DNA of 64,000 bases from an uncultured bacterium. GTDB lineage: Bacteria; Bacillota_I; Bacilli_A; RF39; UBA660. Numbering within the stretch: the first letter of the stretch is position 1; the number at the start of each line of letters is the position of its first letter. Position numbers and translations under genes: made by a program. This document shows positions 13,656-59,439 of the stretch, in pieces. Below the pieces are notes generated by a model that worked only from the letters and a program-made list of their open reading frames with translations, did no database searches and was not told where the DNA came from. Location: assembly GCA_947646655.1 (NCBI GenBank), contig CANSHI010000003.1, positions 1 through 64,000 of the forward strand. The letters are read 5' to 3'.

Positions 13656-14992
13656 ATGAGAAAAAATAAAAAGAAAATATTGATGACTTCTATAGCAGGA
13701 CTAGCTGTTTTTGGAAGTATATTGGGAAGCCATTTATTAAAAGAAGAAGGAACTTTATTACCCCCCCCCCGAGCAGTAAAACTTTAGCGGTATATATAGA
13801 AGATGAGAATAGTGAGACAGGCTATAGTAAAAGTGACTCTACACAATTTCCGACAGAAGGATACATATTAAATATAGAAAAGAGTACATGTACAAATGGA
13901 GGAGTATTAAATCAAGATACGAGTACAAAAAAGATATCATTAAGTATAGAACATAAAAGTAGTTGTTCATTGTACTTTGATAAAGAAATGCTTAAGGCTT
14001 CGGATATATTGGCGAAAAAGATAGCAAATGCAAAATCATCAGAAAATCTAAATTTTGCAGAACCAGCAATAACAGATGAGACATCAGATGGCTTGTATGC
14101 AATGGAAGACGATTATGGAACGAGTTATTACTACAGAGGCGCAGTAGAAGATAACTATGTCAAATTTGCAGGTTTTTATTGGAGGATAATAAGAATCAAT
14201 GGAGACGGGAGTTTGAGAATAATATATGATGGTACACAAGCACATGAGAATGGAGCAAATAGTACAGATAGATTAGTCATACTAAGTTCATATAATGCAA
14301 ATAGAAATGATGCGAAATATGTAGGATATATGTATGGACCGAGTGGATCAGGAGCAAGTACAAGCAAGAGTCAGGCACAGTCAAACACAGCTGATTCAGA
14401 TATAAAGACAGTAATAGAGAATTGGTATAAGACAAACATAGCAGATAAAGGGTATGATGGATACATAAGTGATAATGTCTTTTGTAATGATCGGACAATA
14501 CCAGGAAAAGAGGCAACAGGATGGAGTAGTGATACAGGGTTAGGGTATGGAACAAATACGACAGCATATGGAGCATATGCAAGATTAGGAGCAAATTCGT
14601 TAGGGGCAAACTATTACAATCCAGTACCGAAGTTTATATGTGAGAATAAAAATGATGCGTTTACGAACGAAGATACAAAGAAAGGGAATGGAAAGCTAGG
14701 ACAAAAAGTAGGAATGATAACAGCAGATGAGATAGTAGTAGCAGGAAGTGGAAAGTGTAATACAACAAATAGTAGTTATTACCTATTTAAGGGACCATGG
14801 TATTGGTCGTTCTCGCCTTTTTATATCGGTCCTGGTGGTTATGCTTACGTATTTGCTATTGGTAATGGGGGGATTCTTAACTATGGTAGTGTCAATAATG
14901 CAGGCGGCGTCGCCCCAGTTATCTCACTGAGTGCAGATTACGTAAGAACCATGAGCGGAAATGGTACTATGAGTTCTCCGTTTGAAGCTTAG
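13656..14992 (+). pseudogene. Secreted surface protein, frame set by a C10 tract (phase-variable, OFF as read)
   Basis: ATG 13656 opens a signal-peptide-like N-terminus (basic start, then MTSIAGLAVFGSILGSHLL) that runs into ten C residues at 13761-13770. In the sequence as given the frame stops at 13785-13787 after 43 codons. Eleven or eight C residues would join it to the long open frame that ends at 14992, giving about 445 residues. The mature part has a Cys pair near its start, a WYWSF region near 14800 and a C-terminal cassette ending in a GVAPVISL motif. That end resembles C-type-lectin-fold variable domains (DUF6273-like), an inference by pattern. Codon use changes sharply near 14795. 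A true pseudogene or a base-count error in the tract are alternatives. Confidence 0.7.
13761..13770 (+). repeat. C10 homopolymer tract inside a surface-protein gene
   Basis: Ten consecutive C residues in DNA that otherwise has very few C runs. The tract lies 35 codons after the start codon, between the signal peptide and mature region. A change of +1 or -2 restores the downstream frame exactly. Confidence 0.9.
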
Positions 14993-33247: not shown

Positions 33248-34150
33248 ATGACATTAGTAATTATGGCTGCTGGTATGGGCAGTAGATATGGAGGACTTAA
33301 ACAAATTGATGCTGTAGGTCCAAATGGAGAGTTTATCATAGATTATTCTGTCTATGATGCAATTAAAGCAGGATTTGACAAAGTAGTCTTTATTATAAAA
33401 CGAGAAAATGAAGAAATATTTAAGGAAACAATCGGTAAAAGAGTTGAAAAGTATATAGATGTAAAATATGCTTTTCAAGATTTAGATAATATTCCAGAGG
33501 GAATAGAAGTTCCTAGTGATAGAGTAAAACCTTGGGGAACTACGCATGCGATTTTAGCTTGTAAAGATATCGTTAAAGAAAATTTTGCCATTATAAATGC
33601 CGATGATTTTTATGGGTTTGATGCCTATAAGACTGTCAGTGAATTTTTGAATAACTTAGATAGTAATTCTTTTAATATAGGTTTAGTCGGCTATAGAGTA
33701 GAAAATACTTTGACAGAAAATGGATCTGTTAAAAGAGGAATATGTGAAGTTGAAGATAAATATTTAACTAAGCTAATAGAAAGCCAAGTATCCAGGGAAA
33801 ATGGTATTATAAATGCTAAGCCTTTAGATGGGTCGCAATCTTTTGTTATAAGTAATAATCAACTTGTTTCAATGAATATGTTAGGTTTTACGCCAAAGAT
33901 ATTCGATTTGTTGGAAGAAGATTTTAAAGAATACTTAAATGAAAATAGAGAAAATTTGAGCAAATGTGAAAGACTTATACCTGACACAGTTTATAAATAT
34001 ATAAAACAAAATAAAGTTAAAGTTGAGGTTCTTGATACTACTTCTACGTGGTATGGAGTGACATATAAGGAAGATAGGCCGATGATTATTTCATCTATCA
34101 ATAAACTATTAGATGATGAAGTTTATCCTCGTGACTTATGGAATAAATAA
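33248..34150 (+). CDS. NTP-transferase-family sugar nucleotidyltransferase
   Basis: The 300-residue protein starts with the nucleotide-binding pattern of sugar-1-phosphate nucleotidyltransferases (LVIMAAGMGSRYGGLKQIDA) and has the metal-binding INADDFYG near residue 117. This group activates sugar 1-phosphates as NDP-sugars; which sugar cannot be told from the sequence. ATG 33248 follows AGGAGTG. A promoter with TTGACA near 33201 precedes it. It stands alone after the NHEJ operon and before a decayed toxin-antitoxin-like unit. Confidence 0.85.
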   Translation: MTLVIMAAGMGSRYGGLKQIDAVGPNGEFIIDYSVYDAIKAGFDKVVFIIKRENEEIFKETIGKRVEKYIDVKYAFQDLDNIPEGIEVPSDRVKPWGTTHAILACKDIVKENFAIINADDFYGFDAYKTVSEFLNNLDSNSFNIGLVGYRVENTLTENGSVKRGICEVEDKYLTKLIESQVSRENGIINAKPLDGSQSFVISNNQLVSMNMLGFTPKIFDLLEEDFKEYLNENRENLSKCERLIPDTVYKYIKQNKVKVEVLDTTSTWYGVTYKEDRPMIISSINKLLDDEVYPRDLWNK

Positions 34151-34155
34151 AAGAC

Positions 34156-34270
34156 TTGAGAAAGAAACTCAAGTGTAGTATTATTAATTTAGAGAGCACG
34201 TACTATTTACTACGTGTTCCATGTGTGGATGCACGAGTGAATTTTTAGGAATTTACTCGTATCTTTTTGT
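34156..34270 (+). ncRNA. Small RNA of module A1 (peptide part lost)
   Basis: This is the first of three related units. Promoter TTGAGA (34156-34161), 17 bases, TATTAT (34179-34184). The predicted RNA starts near 34191, has a first hairpin CACGTA/TACGTG and ends in a long hairpin (CACGAGTGAAT... ATTTACTCGT, 34232-34260) followed by a T5 run. The opposing peptide frame present in A2 and A3 is missing here and replaced by the poly-G promoter of the next gene, so only the RNA half remains. Confidence 0.6.
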
Positions 34271-34331
34271 ATTAATTAGTTGTGGCAATGATTAGTTTAA
34301 AAATATCTCTTTTTATAACAAACGATCATCC

Positions 34332-34365
34332 TTGACAAACCTTGGGGGGGGGGTGATAAAATGTT
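34332..34365 (+). promoter_or_regulatory. Promoter with a G10 tract between -35 and -10
   Basis: TTGACA (34332-34337) is followed by AACCTT, ten G residues (34344-34353) and TGATAAAAT, in which TGA-TAAAAT can serve as an extended -10. The spacer is 19 bases with ten G and would be 17 with eight. Changes in the tract would therefore tune promoter strength, a recognised form of transcriptional phase variation. Seen: the sequence. Inferred: the switching. Confidence 0.65.
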
Positions 34366-34403
34366 AATATAAGCATATAAATGTGAGAGGTATGGAAAAT
34401 TAT

Positions 34404-35360
34404 ATGAATGAAGTGAATAAAAAGGCAGAATATAACGCGATTAAATTTTCAAAATATGATTGGAAGAAAATATGTGCAGTAGTTTTTATGATAATATTAT
34501 TATACTCAGTTTCAACGAAATTTGTAACTTTAACTGGTGATAATATAGTTTTATTAGACATGTACATGTTCGAAGTTTCAAGTGTACAACTAACATTATC
34601 TTTTGCCATAATATATTTATATTCAATATTTACTGACAAAAAGAAATTGTCTTATTTAGTTCTTTTCCTATTATTTGTCAGTTTTATATATTCAGCTTAT
34701 ATATATTTTAATATAGAAATTGTAGTGTCAAATATGAGTGAACAGACCATAGTATATATTCAAAATCACACGCAGTATGGAGAAGGAATTGTTTTTTACT
34801 GTATAAGTTTTATAATACTTATAATAAACGTTTTTTTGCCAGGGAAAAAGAAAACTAGAAACGAAACACAAACGTTTAATAATGAAATAAATAATTCATT
34901 TGCTATAAATGACAATTATATTTTTGCAACCTATATATATGGAATAGAAAAGTGTCCTAGTTTATATAATAAGCTTTCCGTGTTGATTGATGATGATACA
35001 TCTGGAATTTTAAATATTAATATAAATATTGAGGCCGAAAAACCCGAGATTATTTCTATTCCTAAAAAAGATATAAAAGATATAAAATATAAACTTAGTA
35101 TAATATCAAAAGAAGTAATGTCGGAAAAGGTCTACGGTCCAGCGGAGCATGTAAGAGACATTGCGCTTTTCGGAGGGCCGACATTTTTAATTATAAAATG
35201 TATAAAAGGGGATAAAATAAAAGATTATTATAAAATGAAAAGTACCCAAGTATATGACATAACTATTATTTATTGTGAAGATAATGAGGAAAAGAAAATT
35301 ATGTTTCAAACTAAAGAAAATCCAAATAAATTTTTAAATAATATAAAAAAATTGGCATAA
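34404..35360 (+). CDS. Four-TM membrane protein with cytoplasmic C-terminal domain (paralogue 1)
   Basis: The 318-residue product has four hydrophobic segments in residues 22-145 and a C-terminal domain of about 170 residues. That domain contains IPKKDIKDIKYKLSIISKEV, DYYKMKSTQVYDITIIY and the end pattern FQTKENPNKFLNNIKKL. It is clearly homologous to the protein encoded at 58516-59439 (FQTKFNPAEFLNKLKE). I know no named family. AGAGG lies about 12 bases before ATG 34404; the frame extends to GTG 34383, but the paralogue has the same leader layout and supports the inner start. The promoter contains a G10 tract, so expression may switch. Confidence 0.75.
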   Translation: MNEVNKKAEYNAIKFSKYDWKKICAVVFMIILLYSVSTKFVTLTGDNIVLLDMYMFEVSSVQLTLSFAIIYLYSIFTDKKKLSYLVLFLLFVSFIYSAYIYFNIEIVVSNMSEQTIVYIQNHTQYGEGIVFYCISFIILIINVFLPGKKKTRNETQTFNNEINNSFAINDNYIFATYIYGIEKCPSLYNKLSVLIDDDTSGILNININIEAEKPEIISIPKKDIKDIKYKLSIISKEVMSEKVYGPAEHVRDIALFGGPTFLIIKCIKGDKIKDYYKMKSTQVYDITIIYCEDNEEKKIMFQTKENPNKFLNNIKKLA

Positions 35361-35488
35361 AAAATATATTTTAGATAATTTTGATGATTTAGTATAGTTA
35401 TTGTTTATTATTCCGTGTGTTCTTCAGTTATGATTAATCTTTTGTAAAACTTTTTATTAAATAACTTGAGAAAAAAATTCAAGTGTAG

Positions 35489-35580
35489 TATTATTAACTC
35501 AGAGAGCGCGTACTATTTACTACGTGTTCCTGTTTGGGTTGCACGAGTGAATTTTTAGGAATTTACTCGTGTCTTTTTGT
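35489..35580 (+). ncRNA. Candidate antitoxin small RNA, module A2
   Basis: Promoter TTGAGA (35466-35471), 17-base spacer, TATTAT (35489-35494). The predicted RNA of about 80 bases starts near 35501, forms a hairpin CGCGTA/TACGTG and ends with the long terminator stem (CACGAGTGAAT / ATTTACTCGTG, 35542-35571) and T5. It runs toward the peptide gene on the other strand and would overlap the 3' part of that mRNA. This is the layout of type I antitoxins such as RatA. Role is inferred. Confidence 0.65.
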
Positions 35581-35589
35581 CTTAATTAG

Positions 35590-35658
35590 TTAATTAAATA
35601 TGACTATTACAATGATGACTAAAATAAGCAATATATTAAGTATAAATAATTTATTCAT
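35590..35658 (-). CDS. 22-residue hydrophobic peptide, candidate type I toxin (A2)
   Basis: Read on the minus strand from 35658, the frame gives MNKLFILNILLILVIIVI followed by VIFN and TAA. AAGGAGTG lies at good spacing before the ATG. The peptide is one hydrophobic helix with a lysine near the start, like membrane-acting type I toxins. A promoter on the same strand, TTGACA (35805-35800) with a 17-base spacer and TAGACT (35782-35777), places the start of the mRNA near 35770 with a leader of about 110 bases. The identical peptide is encoded in A3 and a related one in cluster B (shared FI-x-NILLI). It is not similar to Fst or TxpA as I recall them. Confidence 0.65.
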   Translation of the reverse strand: MNKLFILNILLILVIIVIVIFN

Positions 35659-35885
35659 AACTAACACTCCTTTTCATCTTACCCCTAAAATTGAGTACCA
35701 AAACCCCCTGAAAAATCAAAAAGTCTTAAGACAAAAAGAAAAACACAAATAAATAAAGTCGAACTCTCGAGGTAATAGTCTAGCATATCATTTTGTCGAT
35801 GTCAAAAATTTGGGTATAAAAAAACTATTTAACATTTAAAAATTTTTTTGAAAAATAAACACTTGAGAAAAAAATTCAAGTGTAG

Positions 35886-35978
35886 TATTATTAACTCGGA
35901 GAGCACGTACTATTTACTACGTGTTCCGGTTTGGATTTTCACGAGTGAATTTTTAGGAATTTACTCGTGTCTTTTTGT
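35886..35978 (+). ncRNA. Candidate antitoxin small RNA, module A3
   Basis: Promoter TTGAGA (35863-35868), 17-base spacer, TATTAT (35886-35891). The RNA from about 35898 has the CACGTA/TACGTG hairpin and the terminator stem at 35940-35969 with T5. It opposes the A3 peptide gene. Confidence 0.65.
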
Positions 35979-35987
35979 CTTAATTAG

Positions 35988-36056
35988 TTAATTAAATATG
36001 ACTATTACAATGATGACTAAAATAAGCAATATATTAAGTATAAATAATTTATTCAT
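35988..36056 (-). CDS. 22-residue hydrophobic peptide, candidate type I toxin (A3)
   Basis: The peptide is identical to that of A2, with the same AAGGAGTG ribosome site and leader. Its promoter differs: TTGACA (36203-36198), 17-base spacer, TAAACT (36180-36175). Retention of an intact promoter, leader and frame in both tandem copies suggests selection for function. Confidence 0.65.
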   Translation of the reverse strand: MNKLFILNILLILVIIVIVIFN

Positions 36057-36261
36057 AACTAACACTCCTTTTCATCTTACCCCTAAAATTGAGTACCAAA
36101 ACCCCCTGAAAAATCAAAAAGTCTTAAGACAAAAAGAAAAACACAAATAAATAAAGTCGAACTCTCAAGATAATAGTTTAGCATACCACTTCAGTAATGT
36201 CAAAAGTTCGGCTTAAACAGGGCATTTGTGGATAAAAATTGTATTTTGACATAATGCTTTT

Positions 36262-58223: not shown

Positions 58224-58515
58224 GAAGCTTGTCTTTCAGGTTAAATAAATTAAAAACTTTTTTTAAATAGTACATAAGTTTTTTTAAATGGGATGTTTAA
58301 TTTCTTGAAAAAGAGATGAGGGAAGGGGAGAAGTTAATAGATTTTATTTTTCAAATGTATGATAAATGTTTTCATGAATTTAAATAATATCAATAGCTTT
58401 TTGAGGATTTTGTGGTAGAATATTATTAGGTATTTTTTATGTAGTGAGAAGATTTTAATAAAGGTTTTCTTTCCTAATTGTGCCTTGAACGAATGTGAAA
58501 GGAATGAAATTTTAT

Positions 58516-59439
58516 ATGAAGAATGATAACAATCAAGATGCTAAGCCTAAAAAAATAAACTTAAAAATGATTTTAGCAATAGCATCCTTTATATTAATAT
58601 TCTCCGCTGCAATTAATAAATTTATCACTATATCCACTGATAACGGCATAACCAGTGCCGAATTGCGAGTAAGAGGAGTTGAACTTATTATCTTCACTTT
58701 ACCATATTACATAGGATCTATAGCAATTAAAAAGAGAAAGCCATATTATATTTTTGGAATTATAGTTTTCTTATTATATTGTTATGGAACATATACGTAT
58801 TTAAATTTAGCTAATACACTTAAATACGCTCCTGAATATATTTCAGCGCGAATTCAAATAGGAGAAGGAGCATATCTTTATCTTGCTAGTTTTGTTTTGT
58901 TTGTTATAAGCATTTTTATACCAATCAAATTTGATAATCCTTATAAACAAAATAAATTACCGAAAGAAGTAGAACTAGAATGTGAAATCGAAAACCAATA
59001 TATTTTGGCTAACTACATTTTTGGTTTAAATAAACGACCGGATTTATACTATAAATTAGCCATTATATTAAACAAAGAAGACAGTGAAGATTTAGAAATA
59101 GAAATTCAATCTGAACATTTAGAAAGAATATTAATTCCCAAAAAAAGCATAAAAGATGTAACACAAAAGCTATCTGTTATATCTAAAGAAGTGATGGAAA
59201 CATGGAATTATAGTCCTTCAGCATCGCTACTTGATTGGTCAATTGATTTAAATTATGCATTAATAAAATCTGCAGTATATAAGGACAAAGTATATGATTA
59301 TTATAAAATGAAAACGGATACTGTTTATGACATTCAGATAATTTATGAGATTGAACGACAAGAATACAAATTGATGTTTCAAACAAAATTTAACCCCGCT
59401 GAATTTTTAAATAAACTGAAAGAAAGAAATGAGAAGTAA
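58516..59439 (+). CDS. Four-TM membrane protein with cytoplasmic C-terminal domain (paralogue 2)
   Basis: The 307-residue protein is homologous over its length to that at 34404-35360: four membrane segments (about 12-140), then IPKKSIKDVTQKLSVISKEV, DYYKMKTDTVYDIQIIY and FQTKFNPAEFLNKLKE. AAAGGA lies ten bases before ATG 58516; the frame extends to GTG 58495. This copy has no G tract in its promoter region. It overlaps an IS256 remnant at its 3' end, so its last codons may derive from, or have been joined to, insertion DNA. Function is unknown. Confidence 0.75.
   Translation: MKNDNNQDAKPKKINLKMILAIASFILIFSAAINKFITISTDNGITSAELRVRGVELIIFTLPYYIGSIAIKKRKPYYIFGIIVFLLYCYGTYTYLNLANTLKYAPEYISARIQIGEGAYLYLASFVLFVISIFIPIKFDNPYKQNKLPKEVELECEIENQYILANYIFGLNKRPDLYYKLAIILNKEDSEDLEIEIQSEHLERILIPKKSIKDVTQKLSVISKEVMETWNYSPSASLLDWSIDLNYALIKSAVYKDKVYDYYKMKTDTVYDIQIIYEIERQEYKLMFQTKFNPAEFLNKLKERNEK

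Follow-up and report, generated by a model that had tools for sequence, protein, structure and literature searches.

The window, i.e., the whole 64,000-nt stretch analysed here, contains a gene for a putative membrane protein at 34392, preceded by a promoter-like sequence with a homopolymeric G tract between its -35 and -10 boxes (Table 1). The layout at 34332-34362, which is preceded by cct, reads TTGACA-AACCTT-GGGGGGGGGG-TGA-TAAAAT, giving a spacer of 6 + 10 + 3 = 19 nt. The first-pass annotation had placed ten G exactly between the two boxes and had calculated that eight G would give a 17-nt spacing; its coordinates were right, the tract is exactly 10 G, and the calculation follows from the sum above. 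The predicted product of the downstream gene showed no confident family match in Pfam and profile comparisons, and its structure model reached a pLDDT of only 53; a homologue in another genus is 24% identical. Weak matches to the membrane region of lysyl-tRNA synthetase and to LysX fell below the cut-off, and both assignments were rejected.

Table 1. Features of the promoter region and of the G and C tracts in the genome; positions without a contig number (C1, C3, etc.) refer to the window.
Feature	Position	Strand	Basis or remark
-35 hexamer TTGACA	34332-34337	+	shared by all 12 intact promoters with tracts in the genome
G10 tract in promoter spacer (19 nt in total)	34344-34353	+	sequence reading
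Extended -10, TGA-TAAAAT (TAAAAT 34357-34362)	34354-34362	+	sequence; all intact tract promoters of the genome have TGn after the tract
Candidate switched gene	34392-35360	+	encodes a 322-aa membrane protein with a beta-rich C-terminal domain after about four helices near the N-terminus
Paralogue of the 34392 gene	58504-59439	+	37% identity; without upstream G tract
Terminator-like hairpin just upstream of the G10 promoter	34233-34260	+	fold z = -3.7; within 134-nt repeat 34148-34281
Terminator-like hairpin after the 34392 gene	35541-35572	+	inside copy 2 of the 134-nt repeat, 35458-35591
C10 tract inside a surface-family ORF	13761-13770	+	N-terminus in upstream frame, downstream frame to 14992
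Intact tract promoters on C1	C1:17624, 37709, 110436, 117141, 212822, 240374
Intact tract promoters elsewhere	C3:34344 (34392 gene), C4:62758, C9:15204, C9:35336, C13:20429, C21:4636
Thirteenth promoter, in halves	C19:5020 and C19:7192		split by inserted element
C tracts in ORFs	C3:13761, C1:74669, C16:6390, C23:285
Tract upstream of a related gene	C18:7067		without clear promoter boxes
G8 tract	C7:28357		neither promoter nor C-tract class

The 34392 gene lies between two terminator-like hairpins, each in a copy of a 134-nt repeat, and therefore seems to form its own transcription unit, for which the G10 promoter is the only candidate; the upstream hairpin would insulate this promoter from the preceding gene. 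A search with conventional 16-18 nt spacing found no other + strand promoter from 34184 to the gene, an interval that includes the sequence between the upstream hairpin and the gene. It is thus very unlikely that the gene is driven by another promoter, or that the variable step is post-transcriptional and the tract promoter minor; the start codon is uncertain (GTG 34383 or ATG 34404 could be used instead) and the Shine-Dalgarno-like GAGAGG stands at an unusual spacing to the start, as such readings might have it, but the tract would be outside the transcript of the G10 promoter because it is located upstream of the -10. The 134-nt repeat, which has a third copy in the window at 35855-35988, folds into three hairpins, of which the last is the terminator-like one, and had no Rfam match; a 275-nt direct repeat (95% identical) was also found at 35539-35813 and 35937-36211.

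A search of the whole genome (a 1.43 Mb assembly in 23 contigs, with one consensus length per tract) for G8 alone, with no promoter requirement, identified 20 tracts with a length of 8-12. Twelve of these represent intact promoters composed of TTGACA, 6-7 nt, G9-G12, TGn, and TAnAAT (TTAAAT in one of them), with spacers of 18-21 nt; because the tracts were found by G8 alone, this share of promoters does not stem from the pattern searched for. A strict pattern (TTGACA-N4..8-G7-N0..8-TGnTAnAAT) gave 11 matches in the genome and none in the reversed control. Markov models of the window, built with its two long tracts masked, predict about 0.6-2.3 G or C runs of at least 8, and about 0.01-0.1 runs of at least 10, per 1.43 Mb; the G10 promoter pattern is far beyond chance. 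As in porA- and opc-type promoters, a homopolymer of at least 8 lies wholly inside the -35/-10 spacer at 34344, and the spacer falls within the range (about 15-21 nt) in which a change of one or two nucleotides matters. The proposal that this is a candidate phase-variable promoter, made initially from the window only, is supported by the recurrence of the same architecture about 13 times in the genome, with tracts of 9-12 G; by their sequence, these would represent about 13 putative switches of one design, independent of each other. An origin of the tracts as sequencing or assembly artefacts (poly-G from two-colour Illumina chemistry) is extremely unlikely; a congener assembly (L267) has a G20 run that ends exactly at a contig end, as such artefacts do, but the tracts described here are contig-internal, lie in one and the same promoter context, and are found again in 28 genomes of the taxonomic family, with exact lengths that may be off by one.

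Eleven of the 13 tract promoters are located in front of paralogues of one large surface-protein family, the members of which carry a SipW-type-looking signal anchor (e.g., MEKSKNIRKGIVIGIIVCSLMLVGFLGSYAFFIG); a query from this family matched 68 places in the genome. The twelfth (C1:212822) precedes a protein that resembles the products of the C-tract genes (YIEDD motif), and the C-terminal parts of the YIEDD-motif C-tract proteins belong to the surface family; the 34392 membrane-protein gene, not a member of this family, is the exception among the targets. The surface family shows a sub-threshold resemblance only to camelysin (CalY/TasA-like proteins), the best Pfam Peptidase_M73 score (19.7 bits) not reaching the cut-off of 22.5 bits. 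Surface-family genes without G tracts (L270-L273, L275, L276, and L279) have a common promoter type (resembling TTGAAAAATATACGTAAAACGTATATAAT) whose spacer contains an inverted repeat. An N-terminal hydrophobic segment was found in 61 of 87 proteins encoded after tract promoters as compared to 95 of 335 neighbours (p = 3e-12). The proteins encoded after tract promoters form 47 sequence clusters over 53 genomes and include prepilin-like, PARCEL-repeat, DUF285/leucine-rich, and PKD-domain types, some matches from single-match genomes possibly being due to chance. Judging from its upstream regions, the surface family seems to use promoters of a regulated type besides those with tracts.

The position of the tract relative to the promoter boxes shifts across 27 genomes (0-10 nt after the -35 and 0-9 nt before TATAAT), while the total spacer is 18.6 ± 1.9 nt (per-genome medians), with 19 nt as the most frequent length. 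The lengths before and after the tract are inversely correlated (r = -0.87; permutation p < 5e-5 in a test that treats genomes as independent and uses a pattern bounding spacers to 8-29 nt); random pairing gave a spacer standard deviation of 4.3, with a minimum of 2.37 in 20,000 trials. An earlier compensation test, with a pattern bound of 16-26 nt, was set aside for this version. The conserved quantity is therefore promoter spacing, without a motif around the tract, which represents the strongest evidence for the mechanism. Tract lengths range from 9 to 12 G among the promoters of the genome and up to 16 in other genomes, and most multi-copy genomes have at least two tract lengths; paralogous promoters of the genome with 84-90% identity in the 150 nt upstream differ in carrying 10 or 12 G, a difference between paralogous loci rather than between alleles or cells. 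These data make it unlikely that the G tract, rather than being a switch, is an invariant element with a regulatory or structural role (i.e., bound by a protein or forming stiff A-like DNA) within a promoter that is constitutive or regulated. The tract is always in the spacer, as expected for such an element, and the palindrome ATACG...CGTAT in the spacer of other surface-family members suggests a regulator there; however, the tract length varies within the genome, between close paralogues, and among genomes, and a tract that is free within a spacer of preserved total length is the reverse of the behaviour of a binding site.

Four surface-family genes carry C9-C11 between the signal-anchor N-terminus and an intact downstream frame. 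These include the C10 tract at 13761 reported in the first-pass annotation, which is real, intragenic, and out of frame as assembled. In all four genes, the frame that encodes the N-terminus up to the tract differs from the frame in which the conserved protein resumes after it; the downstream frames (at least 340 codons) are intact and 66-70% identical to the surface-family query, the arrangement of frameshift-type switches, with the tract inside the ORF. The four genes would thus be off as assembled and may represent translational switches. The earlier suggestion that this organism switches at both transcription and translation is consistent, as anatomy, with the promoter G tracts and the four out-of-frame C tracts.

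Taken as a phase-variable promoter, which it very probably is, the G10 site would alter transcription through slippage of its tract; we infer both the slippage within the population and its effect on transcription, as well as which tract lengths are on or off. The site would represent a σA-type promoter in which a perfect -35 and an extended -10 flank a spacer that G10 makes prone to slippage. Slipped-strand mispairing during replication would add or remove one or two G and reset the spacer, which is 19 nt now and would be 17-18 nt with eight or nine G, altering the engagement of both boxes by RNA polymerase, so that sister cells would differ in transcription of the 34392 membrane-protein gene. 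Eleven of the approximately 13 promoters would control surface-family paralogues in this manner, with four more members switching at translation via C tracts; random on/off expression of these genes by gain or loss of G is probable from the arrangement of the tracts. MutS and MutL are both present in the genome and should lower slippage rates; loss of mismatch repair was thus rejected as a cause of hypervariability for this genome. In the meningococcus, such variants still appear under selection when mismatch repair is functional, and loss of mutS raises the rate (PMC3447861).

Most spacers in the genome (19-21 nt) are longer than the usual 17 nt, which would mean either that the promoters are mostly weak or off in the assembly or that the optimum is shifted by G-tract DNA. 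A-like G-tract DNA is less twisted; because of this, and because 19 nt is the commonest length, the optimum may be 17 nt or slightly more. The initial description of 17 nt as the optimum may thus not apply to a G-tract spacer, even though eight G would indeed give this length; none of the promoter tracts in the genome has eight G.

Some tracts are associated with inserted elements. A 2163-nt element (L053, G000:C19:5029-7191) is located inside a G-tract promoter, with G9 on both sides; its ends are 21-nt terminal inverted repeats (GAATGAAGCTTATACCCAAAA), and its genes encode a Fic-domain protein and an MBL-fold protein, with no transposase seen. Congener G007 (L265) has a comparable end (AAGCATATACCCAAAA) immediately after a G10 tract, and a cytosine-methyltransferase-like ORF follows it. 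Elements of the 2163-nt type may target G tracts. Another tract promoter was found in a Treponema MAG (JAAVAP010000012.1, 7450-8000; L092), where a promoter with a G9 spacer (19 nt) is located 104 nt before cas12a (TIGR04330, 1183 bits); smaller ORFs resembling cas4, cas1, and cas2 and an array of 13 repeats are found 3′ of this gene. From this arrangement, the CRISPR-Cas12a locus is possibly phase-variable.

At least 116 matching stretches were found among 84,980 species genomes; those among the matches listed are mainly from uncultured gut Bacilli and Clostridia, and also from Candidatus Ancillula, Treponema, Helicobacter, and others. Tract promoters are unevenly distributed, and genomes that have them often have many; counts in 50 genomes (the source genome included) were 24 in Ancillula, 25 in a rabbit-gut Bacilli bin, and 1-12 in the others, with none in the controls. 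Within the taxonomic family of the source genome, tract promoters were present in 28 of 193 genomes sampled (the union of 7 genomes with TGn required and 27 genomes with TATAAT), with up to 21 per genome and none in the reversed controls; the TGn form is rare in a wider high-completeness sample (3 of 392 genomes). Congener G007 has eight tracts by G8 alone, including seven TTGACA-N8/9-G10/11-TATAAT promoters and one interrupted after the tract; these promoters have no TGn, the tract begins 8-9 nt after the -35 and abuts TATAAT, and the spacers are 19-20 nt. Absence from congeners, as indicated by one of nine matching with TGn required, was rejected, as the seven promoters of G007 are intact once TGn is dropped. 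The tract-promoter battery seems to have arisen on more than one occasion among uncultured Bacillota. It is likely that batteries of poly-G spacer switches (about 25 per genome at most) have arisen repeatedly in uncultured gut Bacilli and in several unrelated bacteria; these switches would set surface-protein repertoires transcriptionally, with some mobile elements perhaps inserting at the tracts.

Tracts in the Campylobacter and Neisseria phasomes act mostly by frameshift, whereas most tracts here are in promoter spacers and only four are in ORFs. Two reports on these phasomes (PMC6321876, PMC5084427) describe many simple-repeat tracts per genome and phase variation. In Neisseria meningitidis, single-residue changes in the poly-G of the porA promoter spacer alter PorA transcription (PMC3899988); porA resembles the G10 promoter in the location of its G tract and, like most targets of the tract promoters here, encodes a surface protein, but it represents a single promoter in a proteobacterium rather than about 13 promoters with an extended -10 in an uncultured Bacilli-type lineage. 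The opc promoter of N. meningitidis, in which 11 or 12 C set the Opc level (PMC3447861), is likewise phase-variable and contains a homopolymer, with a reported effect of length on expression, but the tract is C on the coding strand and a single gene is involved. Chlamydia trachomatis lpxC likewise has a variable homopolymer between a predicted -35 and -10 (PMC4514472), in this case poly-A and at one gene. In a literature search, largely outside subscription papers, no title or abstract gave a description of this kind of system in Bacillota; the principle is known, and the scale and host lineage looked new within the literature searched. The system would let on/off states of surface genes be read from metagenomic reads, and it offers a natural test of the effect of spacer length and G-tract DNA on promoter strength. 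While G-tract phase variation is known mostly from mucosal pathogens, with promoter cases from single genes, the tracts described here suggest that uncultured gut commensals have a transcriptional system spanning the genome, with one simple pattern and a natural length series in many species.
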